In this document: piece after piece, positions 22,910 to 63,114 of the stretch
Layout: each line of letters starts with the position of its first letter
Position numbering within the stretch: the stretch's first letter is position 1
IMG/VR virus record: IMGVR_UViG_3300044825_002278
Location: 1 to 64,000 of that record
Length of the DNA stretch: 64,000 bases
Source of the DNA: a virus
Strand: one strand, 5' to 3'
Translations under genes and position numbers: made by a program
The notes under the pieces: model-generated
Databases searched by the model: none
Told to the model about the DNA's origin: nothing
Seen by the model: the letters and a program-made list of their open reading frames with translations, nothing else

Positions 22910-23199
22910 GGGCTAGTAACGGTATCGATTTGATATGGAAGATTTAAATGCATCGCGTAGTTGGGATAGAGGCTACGTTAAAACTATTCCACAAATTTAA
23001 TTGGCAAGAATACTCTTGCTCTTGCTGCCTAATAAGTAGCTAGGGTTGTCAAACACCCTATTAACCAAAGTTTGACAGCGTAATATCGTTCTTGGACTGA
23101 CTTGCCTTGCTGTCAGGTAAAAAATGCAATGCGCTAACGATGTAGATTTTATTTTGGAAGTATTCAAAGACCCGAGTTCGACTCTCGGCTAGTCCACCA
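22910..23199 (+). ncRNA. ssrA: tmRNA (tag AGKNTLALAA)
   Basis: The ends form a tRNA-like domain: GGGCTAG with CTAGTCC, a CCGAG/TTCGACT/CTCGG T arm, discriminator A and an encoded CCA. Pseudoknot 1 is clear: CGTAG (22956-22960) with CTACG, and GGGATAG (22963-22969) with CTATTCC (22984-22990). Twelve bases later the resume codon GGC opens GKNTLALAA (23003-23029) followed by two TAA stops. A second pseudoknot pairs the loop TGTCAAAC with GTTTGACA, and a third is likely near 23097-23135. It rescues stalled ribosomes with host SmpB. It starts 3 bases after the pseudopilin stop. Confidence 0.95.
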
Positions 23200-38081: not shown

Positions 38082-39152
38082 ATGAAGACTATTTTTAACA
38101 CAAACAATGTAGACCCTATGACTCAGCCCCTTTTCCTTGGAAAGGATTTGGGTGTTCAAAGATATGATATTATCAAGTATCCTATATTCAAGGAACTCGA
38201 TAGCAAGCAAATGATGAATTTTTGGAGGCCAGAAGAAATCGAATTAAAGAAAGATCGGGCAGATTTTAAGGAAATGTCCGAGAACGAAAAGTTTATTTTT
38301 ACGTCTAATCTTAAGTATCAGACAATGCTTGATAGCGTTATCTGTCGCGGAGTACCAACTTTACTGGAATATGTAACAAATAGCGAGCTTGAGGCGTGTC
38401 TTATGACATGGCAATTTTTTGAAAAAATTCACTCTCAAAGCTATAGTTATATCATCCAAAATGTCTATGCAGATAGCAAAGAGGTATTTGACGGCATTTA
38501 TGAAGACAAGGAAATCATGAAAAGGGCCAATAGCGCCATCGAGGATTACAATAACTTGATGGGTATGGCTTGTGATACTAATAAGATTTCTGACATAAAA
38601 AAACAAATCTATATGACTATTGTGAGTATAAATATTCTGGAAGCGGTTCGTTTTTATGTTAGCTTTGTATGCAGTTTCGCCTTTGCTGAAAATAAGAAAA
38701 TGGTCGGAAATGCGGATATTATCAAGCTGATCAAACGCGACGAAGCTTTGCACCTCATGAATACTCAACAAATACTTAAAATTTTACATACAGAAGAATC
38801 TGAAGGTTTTGTCAAAACCGCTCAACAGTGCCAACAAGCTGCCTGTGAATTGTTCGACAGAGCCGCAAAAGAGGAAAAGGAATGGGCTTCTTACCTGTTT
38901 AAGAATGGCTCAATTATAGGTCTAAACGAAACTGTACTGCATCAGTATGTCGATTGGCTTGTAATGTCAAGACGCAAAGCAATAGGATTGCCTTATGAAA
39001 ATGTAGGCAAAAACCCAATTGCAGGATGGACAGAACACTGGATGAATAGTGAGGCTGTTCAAGTTGCTCCACAAGAACACGAAATTACCTCATACAAAAT
39101 TGGAGCGAGTAAAAATGATCTTGAAGACATAGATTTCGGAGGCGTATTATGA
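38082..39152 (+). CDS. nrdB: ribonucleotide reductase class I beta subunit
   Basis: The 356-residue protein has the ferritin-like helices of NrdB with diiron ligands in WRPEEIEL, EACLMTWQFFEKIHS and, later, ILEAVRFYVSF and RDEALHLMNTQQ, plus a Tyr after EKIHSQSY that fits the radical site. It ends with an Asp/Glu tail (LEDIDFGGVL) that docks to NrdA. Start after ACGAGGTAATAA. It overlaps the protease gene by ATGA. Whether the cofactor is di-iron or di-manganese cannot be told. Confidence 0.96.
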   Translation: MKTIFNTNNVDPMTQPLFLGKDLGVQRYDIIKYPIFKELDSKQMMNFWRPEEIELKKDRADFKEMSENEKFIFTSNLKYQTMLDSVICRGVPTLLEYVTNSELEACLMTWQFFEKIHSQSYSYIIQNVYADSKEVFDGIYEDKEIMKRANSAIEDYNNLMGMACDTNKISDIKKQIYMTIVSINILEAVRFYVSFVCSFAFAENKKMVGNADIIKLIKRDEALHLMNTQQILKILHTEESEGFVKTAQQCQQAACELFDRAAKEEKEWASYLFKNGSIIGLNETVLHQYVDWLVMSRRKAIGLPYENVGKNPIAGWTEHWMNSEAVQVAPQEHEITSYKIGASKNDLEDIDFGGVL

Positions 39153-39763
39153 GAAAAGCCCTGCAAAGAACCGCGTCTATTTTATTTCTATCTCTTGTTT
39201 TCACTTTAATTTCTTCGAGTATTTATAGTCAAACGTGTTTTGTAAGGTGTGAACCAGATAAGGAAATCGGAGGCGGAGCTTGCGGATCTGGCTTTTTTAT
39301 TTCAAAAAATGAAATCCTAACTGCTGCCCATGTAATAAATGATGCAAACAATGTTAGGGTTGAATTTGATGGAAAGTATTTTATGGCTTCTGTTGTCAAA
39401 CAAGATGTGTCAAAAGACCTAGCGCTATTGAAAATAAATGAAGAATGTGATGTATTTTACAAACTCAGCGATGATTCTGGAAAAATTGAGCAAGAAGTAA
39501 CTTGTTATGGATTTCCGAGAGGCGTTTGGAGTATGTATAAATCAGAAGGAGTTATCAAGGAAATTAATAGCGTAAATAGGGACTCTACTGACAAGTCAAG
39601 ACTTGAGTATGCTGTTTTTATGAATGTAACAAACGGAATGTCTGGCGGTCCTCTTTTAACTAAAGATAAGGTTGTCATAGGCGTTCTAAGTAGTAAAAAT
39701 GTTATTGGCGAACAAAGAGCAAATTTTATTTCGCTTGAGGAAATAAGAAAGTTTCTTGACTAA
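39149..39763 (+). CDS. secreted trypsin-like serine protease
   Basis: The 204-residue product has a signal peptide (LQRTASILFLSLVFTLISSS), then the chymotrypsin-fold triad: His in ILTAAHVI (about 57), Asp in DLALLKI (about 88) and Ser in NGMSGGPLL (about 167). It is the HtrA-like catalytic domain without a PDZ domain. It would cleave proteins outside the cytoplasm. It overlaps nrdB by ATGA, which is odd for an exported protease. No clear propeptide. Confidence 0.88.
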   Translation: MRKALQRTASILFLSLVFTLISSSIYSQTCFVRCEPDKEIGGGACGSGFFISKNEILTAAHVINDANNVRVEFDGKYFMASVVKQDVSKDLALLKINEECDVFYKLSDDSGKIEQEVTCYGFPRGVWSMYKSEGVIKEINSVNRDSTDKSRLEYAVFMNVTNGMSGGPLLTKDKVVIGVLSSKNVIGEQRANFISLEEIRKFLD

Positions 39764-39775
39764 AGTTAAAACAAA

Positions 39776-39893
39776 GCGAGAGCCAAGTGGTTGGTGGTAT
39801 TTAGGATAGGACATTGTTCACAAACTCTGCTTCCTATGTAGACGGTGATCAATGCTAAATATCGTAAAGCTGGTTCGAGTCCAGCCTCTCGCC
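39776..39893 (+). ncRNA. 118-nt tRNA-like RNA with a pseudoknotted third arm
   Basis: Seen: acceptor GCGAGAG with CTCTCGC (7 bp); a hairpin CCAA-GTGG-TTGG in the D position; a perfect T arm GCTGG/TTCGAGT/CCAGC. In place of the 17-base anticodon arm there is a 68-base arm: GGTATTTAG (39796-39804) with CTAAATATC (39855-39863), then CATTGTTCAC with GTGATCAATG (one mismatch), then TCTGC-TTCCTAT-GTAGA. The 5' bulge ATAGGA (39806-39811) is complementary to the apical loop TCCTAT. No usable anticodon arm remains. Inferred to be a stable structured RNA; function unknown. Confidence 0.6.
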
Positions 39894-39924: not shown

Positions 39925-39978
39925 ATGGAAAATAGTGTTGAACTTCTTGGTTATTATTTTTTAAAAAACAACATTTAA
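39925..39978 (+). CDS. possible 17-residue peptide
   Basis: An ATG after CAAAGGATAAGCAA opens a 17-codon frame (MENSVELLGYYFLKNNI). The ribosome binding site is good but the frame is tiny and lies between two structured RNAs; it may be chance. Confidence 0.2.
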   Translation: MENSVELLGYYFLKNNI

Positions 39979-39992
39979 AGTCAAAATTTGTG

Positions 39993-40094
39993 TATAATAC
40001 TATGGATAAATTCGCGGTTATCCATATGTAAACAAAATAACTTTACCCCCCTTTTGTTTGATGCCGCGAACATCTCCAATTGTGGGGGTTTTTT
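39993..40094 (+). ncRNA. small RNA with two complementary hairpin loops and a terminator
   Basis: A TATAAT (39993-39998, extended TTGTG) precedes hairpin A: TATGGATAA (40001-40009) with TTATCCATA (40018-40026), 8-base loop holding TTCGCGG. Hairpin B is GATG-CCGCGAA-CATC (40060-40074). The loops TTCGCGG and CCGCGAA are perfectly complementary (7 bp), so a kissing interaction is possible. C6 (40046-40051) can pair with G5 (40084-40088), followed by T6, forming an outer terminator-like stem. It may be an sRNA, a riboregulator of the endonuclease gene 12 bases downstream, or both. Function unknown. Confidence 0.55.
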
Positions 40095-40105
40095 ATTAAA
40101 ATATT

Positions 40106-40753
40106 ATGAAATCAGGAATATATCAAATAAAAATAAACAATAGTTTTTATATTGGGTCTTCTAAAAATATTCAAAGAAGATACTGGGAACATTTATGGAA
40201 ATTAAAAAATAAAAAACATCCAAATATCCATTTACAAAATTTGTATAATAAACATGGAGAAGAAAAATTTGAATTATTTATATTGGAAAGTTGCACAATA
40301 AATTGTTTAATAGAGAGAGAGCAATACTGGATTAATTTATTAAATCCAAATATAAACAAAGCACCAGTTGCTGGTTCAACATTAGGACTAAAATTAACAA
40401 ATGAACAATGCAAAAATAGAAGCAAAAATAATATTGGAAGAAAACATTCTCTTGAATCTATCAAAAAAAGAACAGATAAAATAAAAGGTAGAAAATATAC
40501 AGAAAAACACAGAGAAAATATATCTAAAAGCAGATTAGGTAAAAAACAAAATCAACAAACAATTAAAAATAGGGCAGAAAAAAATAAAAAACCTATTGCT
40601 TGTTATGATTTAAATTATATATTAATACGAATATACGATTCCGCTAAAACAGCGGCTTTAGAAAACAATTATCATGCAACAAACATAACAAGATGTTGTA
40701 AAAATAAAATTAAAACTTATAAAAACAAGATTTGGAGGTATTGGGATGGTTGA
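40106..40753 (+). CDS. GIY-YIG homing endonuclease with NUMOD motifs
   Basis: The 215-residue protein starts with a GIY-YIG nuclease domain (GIYQIKI, FYIGSSKNIQRRYWEH, and the catalytic Glu in LIEREQYWI). It continues with NUMOD3-like DNA-binding repeats (GRKHSLESIKKR, GRKYTEKHRENISKS) and a NUMOD1-like end (PIACYDLN...). These are free-standing homing endonucleases like the phage Seg enzymes. It is very AT-rich compared with neighbours. It overlaps thyX by 8 bases and its start is poorly served by a ribosome binding site, behind the structured RNA. Confidence 0.92.
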   Translation: MKSGIYQIKINNSFYIGSSKNIQRRYWEHLWKLKNKKHPNIHLQNLYNKHGEEKFELFILESCTINCLIEREQYWINLLNPNINKAPVAGSTLGLKLTNEQCKNRSKNNIGRKHSLESIKKRTDKIKGRKYTEKHRENISKSRLGKKQNQQTIKNRAEKNKKPIACYDLNYILIRIYDSAKTAALENNYHATNITRCCKNKIKTYKNKIWRYWDG

Positions 40754-41393
40754 ACTTATTTCATATTGGGGCAATGATTTAATGATCGTTAACGCCGCTA
40801 GAGTATCTTTTGGAAAATATAAAAATAAATTAGACGAGAAAGATAAAAAATTAATTAAATTTCTTAAAGAACATAAACACGTTAGTGTATTTCGTCATCC
40901 GCAATTACAATTTAGGATCACATGCCCAATTTTTGTAGAAAGACAATTGTTTAAACATCAAGTAGGGATGTCTGCTAATAGTATATCCGGTAGATATGTT
41001 GACTTTAGCGATTCTTATTTTAGTTTTAAAGATGGGGAGTGGCGGAAACAATCAGCGAATTCTAAACAAGGAAGCTCTGGTCCGGTTTTAAATAATCTTC
41101 AACATAAATGTACAAAAATACAAAATAGCGTAGTAGATATTTGTAAAAACGCATATAATGAATTATTATCTTTAGGCGTTTCAAAAGAACAAGCAAGAAC
41201 TATACTTCCGCTATGTTTAAATACAACTTTTATTTGGACAGGTTCTTTATTATCATTTTTACATCTTTGGGAATTAAGATTAAAAGAAGATGCTCAACAG
41301 GAAACCAGAGAAATCGCTGTTAAAATGCTAGAGTTGGTCAAGGGCATCGAAGGCAATCCGTTTAAACATACGCTTGAAGCGTGGGGATATTGA
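40746..41393 (+). CDS. thyX: flavin-dependent thymidylate synthase
   Basis: The 215-residue protein matches ThyX: FRHPQLQFRITCP, then RQLFKHQVGMSANSISGRYVD, a variant of the RHRxxSxNxxSxRY signature, and PLCLNTTFIWTGSLLSFLHL before the C-terminal helix. It methylates dUMP using methylene-THF and FAD. In the signature the usual second Arg is Lys-His-Gln, a mild change. It starts with a TGGAGG site inside the preceding endonuclease gene and ends overlapping a second endonuclease gene by 3 bases. Confidence 0.93.
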   Translation: MVELISYWGNDLMIVNAARVSFGKYKNKLDEKDKKLIKFLKEHKHVSVFRHPQLQFRITCPIFVERQLFKHQVGMSANSISGRYVDFSDSYFSFKDGEWRKQSANSKQGSSGPVLNNLQHKCTKIQNSVVDICKNAYNELLSLGVSKEQARTILPLCLNTTFIWTGSLLSFLHLWELRLKEDAQQETREIAVKMLELVKGIEGNPFKHTLEAWGY

Positions 41394-61150: not shown

Positions 61151-61483
61151 GTGAATAAATGTCATTTTTTAGGAAAGCTAACCTGCGATCCTAAAGTTAA
61201 AAAAGAAAATAATGTTCCGGTAATAAATTTTGAATTAGAAATAGAAGAGTTTAGAAAAGACAACAATAAAGAAAAGGTAAGGTCTTTAACTTATTTGAAT
61301 TTCGAGGCATGGGATACGGCAGCAGAGGCAATTGAAAAGTATGCCAAAAAAGGAAGTTTGATGGCCATCGAATCTGTAGCGAGAAATTATTTTTATGAAG
61401 ACCCGCATGATCCAGAAGCAGATGAAATAACTGAAACTTATTTTAGGGTAACTAATTTTAAAATACTCGGAATAGGAATATGA
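61151..61483 (+). CDS. second SSB-like protein
   Basis: GTG start after GAAAGGTAAAAT. The 110-residue protein follows the SSB/OB layout: NKCHFLGKLTCDPKVK, VPVINFELEIEEF, LTYLNFEAWDTAAEAIEKYA, KKGSLMAIESVARN. It differs from the ssb at 23965 and lacks the acidic tail. It may be a replication-specific SSB made with the polymerase. Overlaps the next gene by ATGA. Confidence 0.82.
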   Translation: MNKCHFLGKLTCDPKVKKENNVPVINFELEIEEFRKDNNKEKVRSLTYLNFEAWDTAAEAIEKYAKKGSLMAIESVARNYFYEDPHDPEADEITETYFRVTNFKILGIGI

Positions 61484-63114
61484 GAAAAAAAAGAATACTT
61501 TGGGTAAACGATGCCTCATGGAAAGGCACTGGTTATGCTGTTTATTCTAATGAAGTACTATCTAGACTTAATAAAGTTGAAGATTTTGAAGTGGCTGAAA
61601 TAGCTTGTTATGCAGACAAAAACGATCCGCATATCAAAGATGTTCCTTGGAAGGTTTACGCCAATAGACCATTAGAAACTGATCCAAATTTTGAAAACTA
61701 TGTCAAAAATCCAAGTTTAATTTTTGGCGAGAATGTTTTTAATGAAGTTCTTTTGGATTTTATGCCGGATATAGTTATGGATATACGCGATTGGTGGATG
61801 TTTGAATACCAGCAGCGTTCGCCATTCAGGGAATTTTTTCACTGGTCAATAATGCCAGCGGTAGATGCATCGCCTCAAAATCCGCAATGGATTAATACTT
61901 ATGCTTCAGCCGACAGTGTTTTTGGTTATTGTGAATTTAGTAAAGAAACCCTTGAAAATCAATCTGATAAAATAAATTTCATCGACATAGCGTCTCCTGC
62001 GGCCAATGCAAATGATTTTGTTCCAGTAAAAGATAAAGCGACCCACAAAGACAATATGGGATTAGACGCAAATTCAATTATTGTTGGAACTGTGATGCGA
62101 AATCAACGACGAAAGCTTTACCCAGATTTATTTAAAGCTTTTAGAATGTTTCTGGATGAAACTAAAAACCCAAACGTATTTCTATTCTGCCATAAATATT
62201 ATCCAGATATTGGGTGGGAAACTCCAGCATTGCTTGATATGTTTGGGTTGAGTAATAGAGTTTTGTTTTCTTACAAATGCCAAGAATGTAAACATATTAG
62301 CGTTGACTTCTTTAAAGATTCAGTCACTCATTGCGAAAAATGCAAAAAGTTTTCAAAACGCTTGGTGGGTGTTGATAATACAATGAGCAATGAGGAACTA
62401 AGCAAAATATACAATTTATTTGATGTTTATGTTCAATATGCCAATAGCGAAGGATTTGGTATGCCTCAGCTTGAGGCAGCTTATTGTGGCATTCCGGTTA
62501 TGACCATTTATTATTCAGCAATGAAATCTGTTGCAGACAACATAGGAGCTATTCCTATTTATCCAATAGAATATTCTATGGAATGTGAAACTGGATGCTA
62601 CAGAGCGATACCAAACAATCAACAATTTGTAGAAAAATTGAAAGAAGTTTTAAGCACCGATTTTCGTTCTGCTGGTTTAAAAACAGCGGAGCTTGCCAGA
62701 AAGCATTATAGTTGGGACAAAACTGCAAATGCTTGGATTGATCATTTTAGAACGATACCGCTGAAAGATCATTCTGAAACTTGGCGGTCGCCGCCTAAGA
62801 TATTTGAGCCAGCAACTACTATACCAAGCGAAATAATAGACCTTAAAGATCAAATAAATTACATATTTAGATACGTTCTACACAAACCAGAATGGATTGG
62901 CGGTTACTTCTGGTCTAAAGTTTTAAAAGATATTACTTTTGGATACCGCGTAAGAAACTCAGAAGATGACTATTACTTTAATGAGTCGCATATGCCAGCA
63001 GTTGATAAATACCAAAAGTTTAATTTTGTTATGGCAGTGAACGAACTAACAAATCTTAGAAATCAATGGAATCAATGGGAAAGGCTCAGAAGTGAACATG
63101 TTGCAAGATTTTAG
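61480..63114 (+). CDS. GT4-type glycosyltransferase with zinc ribbon insert
   Basis: The 544-residue protein has a GT-B fold: NDASWKGTGYAVYSNEV near the start, IIVGTVMRNQRRKLYPDL at the domain boundary and SEGFGMPQLEAAYCGIPVMT with the Glu pair. A CQECKHISVDFFKDSVTHCEKCKK zinc ribbon is inserted around residues 267-290, not usual for the family. It would transfer a sugar from a nucleotide donor. The C-terminal 120 residues are extra and of unknown role. It overlaps the next gene by 23 bases. Confidence 0.87.
   Translation: MRKKRILWVNDASWKGTGYAVYSNEVLSRLNKVEDFEVAEIACYADKNDPHIKDVPWKVYANRPLETDPNFENYVKNPSLIFGENVFNEVLLDFMPDIVMDIRDWWMFEYQQRSPFREFFHWSIMPAVDASPQNPQWINTYASADSVFGYCEFSKETLENQSDKINFIDIASPAANANDFVPVKDKATHKDNMGLDANSIIVGTVMRNQRRKLYPDLFKAFRMFLDETKNPNVFLFCHKYYPDIGWETPALLDMFGLSNRVLFSYKCQECKHISVDFFKDSVTHCEKCKKFSKRLVGVDNTMSNEELSKIYNLFDVYVQYANSEGFGMPQLEAAYCGIPVMTIYYSAMKSVADNIGAIPIYPIEYSMECETGCYRAIPNNQQFVEKLKEVLSTDFRSAGLKTAELARKHYSWDKTANAWIDHFRTIPLKDHSETWRSPPKIFEPATTIPSEIIDLKDQINYIFRYVLHKPEWIGGYFWSKVLKDITFGYRVRNSEDDYYFNESHMPAVDKYQKFNFVMAVNELTNLRNQWNQWERLRSEHVARF

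Follow-up and report, generated by a model that had tools for sequence, protein, structure and literature searches.

A 118-nt tRNA-like RNA element of a phage keeps its frame but not its arm in a related lineage

A small RNA element of 118 nt is located on the plus strand of the window (the whole stretch of 64,000 nucleotides analysed here, part of a virus record of 103,909 bases) at positions 39776-39893, between the end of a protease gene (39763) and the start of thyX (39925). Comparison with a second phage lineage shows a conserved tRNA-like frame and a replaced arm in the anticodon position. With confidence about evenly balanced, we regard the element as a tRNA-derived, non-decoding, processed small RNA in which a fast-evolving arm is carried on a conserved tRNA elbow.

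Results

The fold drawn in the earlier note on this DNA was recovered in all its parts: the acceptor and T arms are perfect as claimed, the mini D-like hairpin is present, and the 68-base arm (39796-39863) occupies the anticodon position with its stems where they had been placed (Table 1). The GG of the D element is probably the one that would meet the T loop in an elbow. An encoded CCA is missing, as it is from the tRNAs of this phage. Open reading frames overlapping the element are of 22-42 codons only, an intrinsic terminator scan gave no match at the element, and no promoter was found there.

Table 1. Features of the RNA locus in the window, and members of a separate tRNA-like family
Feature	Position	Strand	Basis or remark
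Trypsin-like protease gene	39149..39763	+	phrog_9683 protease, E = 2e-16; stop 12 nt before the RNA
Acceptor stem, 5' strand GCGAGAG	39776..39782	+	7/7 pairs with 39886-39892
Mini D hairpin / D-loop element CCAA-GTGG-TTGG	39783..39794	+	Fold; no U8/A9 linker
Arm helix H1, 5' strand GGTATTTAG	39796..39804	+	Pairs with 39855-39863
7-nt bulge GATAGGA, possible pseudoknot partner	39805..39811	+	6-nt complement to apical loop
Distal arm H2a/H2b (CATTG-T-TCAC ... GTGA-T-CAATG) and apical hairpin	39812..39854	+	z = -3.8 alone
Apical hairpin TCTGC-TTCCTAT-GTAGA, anticodon-arm-like (U33, CCU, A37)	39826..39842	+	Sequence, fold
Arm helix H1, 3' strand CTAAATATC	39855..39863	+	Fold; homologue comparison
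T arm GCTGG-TTCGAGT-CCAGC	39869..39885	+	5/5 pairs; canonical T loop TTCGAGT
Acceptor stem, 3' strand CTCTCGC, and discriminator-position C	39886..39893	+	No encoded CCA
Remnant of native thyX start (MENSVELLGYY...)	39925..39978	+	31 nt after the RNA; resembles intact L002 ThyX start
tRNA-like family member	L110:1410-1506 = G003 61410-61506		Just downstream of tmRNA
tRNA-like family member	L041:2507-2607		Just upstream of permuted tmRNA
tRNA-like family member	L214:2456-2555 (minus strand)		
tRNA-like family member	L226:13261-13361 (minus strand)		

The minimum free energy of the element is -41.5 kcal/mol, against a mean of -28.9 for shuffled sequences (z = -3.8; 0/200 shuffles as good), and the opposite strand folds more weakly (z = -2.5). 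Of 1000 shuffles, the arm alone (z = -3.2) beats 995 and its distal part 999. We scanned for a 7-bp acceptor (7/7) and a T arm, both fully paired, the first closing the second, with TTCRA in the T loop. No match occurred in 9.6 Mb of sequence simulated by a first-order Markov model of the window. Within the window itself the same scan returned most of the real tRNAs, the tmRNA, the 118-nt element and one chance match, the acceptor of which lacks any G-C pair, and in approximately 1.9 Mb of real phage DNA only eight cases not called by ARAGORN were retrieved. The fold score and the empty simulated scan bear out the previous assertion that the structure is hard to explain by chance; the element is no accident of base composition.

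The phage encodes a ribonucleotide reductase, a primase, a DnaB-type helicase and a DNA polymerase, and its RNA genes comprise six tRNAs called by ARAGORN and one tmRNA. Downstream of the element, a GIY-YIG homing endonuclease gene (40106-40753) interrupts thyX after its native start; a divergent ThyX allele comes next (40746-41393), and a terminator-like hairpin with a T-run (40072-40097) lies inside the interruption, just before the endonuclease gene. The region 39925-41393 looks like an endonuclease-driven allele replacement and not an intron; a group I intron in thyX was discarded because the native start is not continued by the 3' coding part, which belongs to a different ThyX allele, and neither a group I intron nor any other Rfam family matched at the locus. 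The tmRNA (22910-23199) has the predicted tag GKNTLALAA, and its homologue in G003 (L110:1045-1333), which ARAGORN misses, is detected by Rfam.

Four related contigs were found through the neighbouring protease. In three of them (L002, L003 and L004) an 86-nt homologue of the RNA occupies the same place, in the order protease, RNA, thyX, and ends 34 nt before an intact thyX. Since these three contigs are only one base apart over 20 kb they represent one lineage, so that the independent sequences of the RNA are two only, that of the window and that of this lineage, whose genome has about 77-80% DNA identity with the window's over most of its length. In L005, a third related lineage, the RNA is missing and the protease and thyX genes are only about 55 nt apart.

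The D element of L002 is identical to that of the window in 12/12 nt, the T stem is likewise identical, and the elbow elements, GG in the D loop and TTCGA in the T loop, are kept exactly. In the acceptor 6/7 pairs are kept, one of them through a compensatory change (A-U to G-C), and one is broken (A-U to C.U); in helix H1 eight of the nine positions are kept, with one compensatory change at the distal pair (G-C to A-U) and one G.U replaced by G-C. Compensatory changes, to which the earlier note had looked in homologues, were thus found twice, in the acceptor and in the arm helix. Beyond H1 all differs: the arm of the window continues with an asymmetric bulge, two more helices and a 7-nt loop, whereas the 37-nt arm of L002 is a 9-bp hairpin with a 16-nt loop and no bulge, which also folds better than its shuffles (z = -3.9). 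A U-run follows the acceptor stem of L002. Between the two lineages, then, the frame is conserved and the arm is replaced.

The arm had been described as pseudoknotted through pairing of its bulge with its apical loop. The complementarity is confirmed, with 6 bases matching between GATAGGA and TTCCTAT (39831-39837), a coincidence expected between two random 7-mers at about 0.0012, but a pseudoknotted 68-nt arm is not supported as the defining feature, because the homologue has neither the bulge nor its partner. Both partners are seen in one sequence, and a loop-bulge pseudoknot is therefore a possibility to which the comparison lends no support. In order to form it, the loop must fold back over H3, the internal loop and H2 (about 10-15 helical layers); this would take either a sharp bend at the AAAC/CG internal loop or pairing of one molecule with another. 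The statement that no normal anticodon arm exists is right only in part: in the window an anticodon-arm-like hairpin at the apex had been overlooked. This hairpin has the anticodon-arm geometry of a tRNA-Arg(CCU), with 5 bp, a 7-nt loop, U33, CCU and A37, and is located at the tip of an 18-bp arm, not joined directly to the core. Its presence may be fortuitous or a relic of the ancestor.

A covariance model (R1) built from the window RNA and the L002 homologue scored 109 bits in the L002 lineage and 80 bits in the window, as expected for its own source sequences. In a covariance search with this model over 147 phage records, as proposed earlier, the three L002-type contigs were the only strong matches and no further homologue was found; the weaker matches inspected were real tRNAs or belonged to a separate tRNA-like family. 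Compared by BLASTN with 50,697 phage records, the RNA gave only T-arm coincidences of 21-22 nt, and four differently placed DNA patterns run over viral contigs always retrieved the same three contigs. Over cellular genome contigs a DNA pattern gave nine matches, none with this architecture, most of them being the D motif upstream of a real tRNA by chance.

The separate tRNA-like family, distinct from the window RNA, comprises four different sequences of 97-101 nt (Table 1). Its acceptor, T and variable-arm stems covary, its anticodon-like loop lacks U33, and the blocks GATAAAGACGCT...AGAATAA and AGTCGG are invariant, the G003 member being shortened in the first block; the family is missed by ARAGORN and, where scanned, by the Rfam tRNA model at gathering threshold. 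Single cases were also observed. Between its tRNA-Pro and tRNA-Ser genes a related phage carries an expanded tRNA-like gene of 136 nt (L109:19431-19565), which neither ARAGORN nor Rfam at gathering threshold calls. A tRNA enlarged to 182 nt by some 100 additional bases (L214:14326-14506, minus strand) reaches 36.6 bits with the Rfam tRNA model (gathering score 29) and is missed by ARAGORN. In an 84-nt tRNA-like RNA (L066:2821-2903) the anticodon position holds a 6-bp stem with a loop of roughly 15 nt, a plan like that of the L002 homologue, with which a sequence relation is undetectable. As the same scan uncovered the family and the single cases, non-standard tRNA-like genes recur in these phages uncalled by ARAGORN, and, being missed by standard tRNA finders, such genes are probably under-counted in phages.

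Discussion

We hypothesize that the acceptor stem, the D element and the T arm would together form a tRNA-like elbow recognised by host tRNA enzymes, and that RNase P would cut at 39775/39776 within an nrdA-nrdB-protease-(thyX) transcript. The 3' end would then be trimmed and CCA probably added; such processing would yield a stable RNA of about 118 nt and would part the protease message from that of thyX. The changeable part would be the arm in the anticodon position, bearing whatever phage-specific contact the RNA makes, including any target in trans. Several observations weigh against a processed, non-decoding RNA of this kind: the independent sequences are two only, L002 has one broken acceptor pair, as a decaying gene would, the RNA is missing in L005, no promoter was found at the element, and the missing U8/A9 linker might impair recognition by tRNA enzymes.

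Its main rivals are the decay of a pseudogene and a purely cis-acting processing site. An old tRNA gene from which insertions and deletions had removed the anticodon arm, and which is functionless now, would fit the variation in arm and length between lineages (118 versus 86 nt), the broken acceptor pair of L002 and the gap in L005. Nevertheless, the frame and the fold have outlasted the turnover of the arm, with two compensatory changes and an identical D element and T stem, both unlike arms beat their shuffles (z -3.2 and -3.9), and an 18-bp paired arm with an apical hairpin is not expected from random decay, so that we judge this origin rather unlikely. Less probable, and in our view unlikely, is a tRNA-like site which serves only for processing by RNase P or another RNase, or as an insulator, between the nrd-protease and thyX mRNAs, with no function of a free RNA. 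The tight fit between co-directional genes, 12 nt past a stop and 31 nt before a start, is in accordance with such a role; the placement in L002 is the same, and there the U-run comes after the acceptor stem. Yet a simple tRNA half would suffice for it and the 68-nt arm would be needless, L005 does without the RNA, and the terminator scan finds nothing at the element.

The remaining readings assign the element to the tRNAs, to the tmRNAs or to decoys of defence systems. ARAGORN makes no call on it, nor does Rfam at gathering thresholds, the canonical tRNA model RF00005 included, and its best match in the tRNA clan is tRNA-Sec with 17.7 bits against a cut-off of 47. It has the 7-bp acceptor, the 5-bp T arm and the TTCRA loop of canonical tRNAs, and lacks a 5-bp anticodon stem on the core that is kept in homologues. 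Decoding by the 118-nt RNA is unlikely because the homologue has no anticodon-arm-like hairpin, and decoding is not a conserved function since the 16-nt loop of that homologue offers no anticodon arm. Accordingly, we find it highly improbable that the element is a functional tRNA-Arg(CCU) whose anticodon arm was extended by two helices. The geometry of the apical hairpin would suit such a tRNA, and AGG accounts for 51 of 11,626 codons; this is a rare codon (4.4 per 1000), however, in a phage that already has a tRNA-Arg(UCU), and the hairpin is not found in L002. Moreover, the arm exceeds 20 bp, far beyond known working tRNAs, in which anticodon stems are of 5-6 bp (PMC7609411), the discriminator position is a C, and U8/A9 are missing.

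The apical loop and the tRNA elbow of the window RNA might also be read as a decoy, aimed at an anticodon nuclease of the host or at some other defence acting on tRNAs, with an anticodon-like loop displayed on a non-essential scaffold. We consider this very unlikely: the homologue has no anticodon-like loop and the reading is purely inferential. As for a tRNA-repair context, T4-type RNA ligase had no match in G000 or G003 in a search whose control matched nowhere either. A minimal tmRNA-like RNA is barely conceivable. It would account for an acceptor and T arm combined with a non-anticodon arm that holds a possible pseudoknot, but it is largely refuted by sequence, as the element has G3-C70 in place of the alanine identity pair G3-U70 and no tag frame ending in ALAA, the Rfam tmRNA model (RF00023) does not match it, and a genuine tmRNA is encoded elsewhere in the phage.

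In design, the tRNA-like domain of tmRNA does resemble the element, with acceptor and T arm kept and the anticodon arm replaced; the element differs in having neither the G3-U70 pair nor an mRNA-like domain, and in coexisting with a separate tmRNA. The pseudo-tRNA tRNA-Other of Bacillus cereus is likewise tRNA-like with no role in translation (PMC3399842), but it is bacterial, lies at a genomic island and is part of a larger regulatory RNA; the likeness is taken from its description.

The closest comparison is with the two small RNAs of T4, rnaC (species 1) and rnaD (species 2), at 70908-71171 of AF158101, the roles of which are termed unknown (PMC3014915; PMC9697503; PMC12685909); rnaC transcripts are classed as late RNAs, validated by Northern blot, of unknown function (PMC9697503). 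In an alignment of rnaC from nine Tevenvirinae phages the T stem covaries, one of its pairs being G-C, T-A or A-T, and the acceptor-like stem has one A-T/G-C change and two invariant U.U positions, while in three Klebsiella/Kosakonia phages the middle section is replaced on an unchanged frame. The 139-nt rnaC thus shares with the window RNA a phage-encoded, non-decoding character, a T arm with a closing acceptor or acceptor-like stem, one or more large arms where a normal anticodon arm would be, and a middle that varies on a conserved frame. It differs in lying in a tRNA cluster, whereas the nearest predicted tRNA is about 19 kb away from the window RNA, and in having no D element, one additional long arm ahead of the T arm, and the two U.U acceptor mismatches. 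A covariance model of rnaC (R2) gives 156 bits in T4 and no match to the window RNA up to E = 10, and R1 gives rnaC 16 bits only, within the range of ordinary tRNAs; a TGACG apical motif common to L002 and rnaC was dismissed as too short to mean anything. At 119 nt rnaD is nearer in size and likewise lies near a GIY-YIG homing endonuclease gene (segB), but its predicted fold lacks the 3' acceptor and T arm and is no better than shuffles (z -0.8).

Of the two alternatives offered in the earlier note, an analogue of the T4 RNAs survives as far as design is concerned (a tRNA frame with an exchangeable interior) and fails as homology, given that R2 finds no match; a new class is not sustained, two independent sequences being too few and the pseudoknotted arm having no support as a class feature. 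It is possible, although we hold it with low confidence, that large phages repeatedly convert tRNA genes to non-decoding RNAs made of a conserved tRNA elbow and an exchangeable effector arm, and that the window RNA, T4 rnaC and the tmRNA-neighbouring family (G003 61410-61506 and relatives) are independent examples of one functional kind. The two small RNAs of T4 have been functionally unexplained for decades, and an unrelated phage with the same design provides a second handle on them, namely a tRNA frame with a replaceable arm in a simple gene setting.
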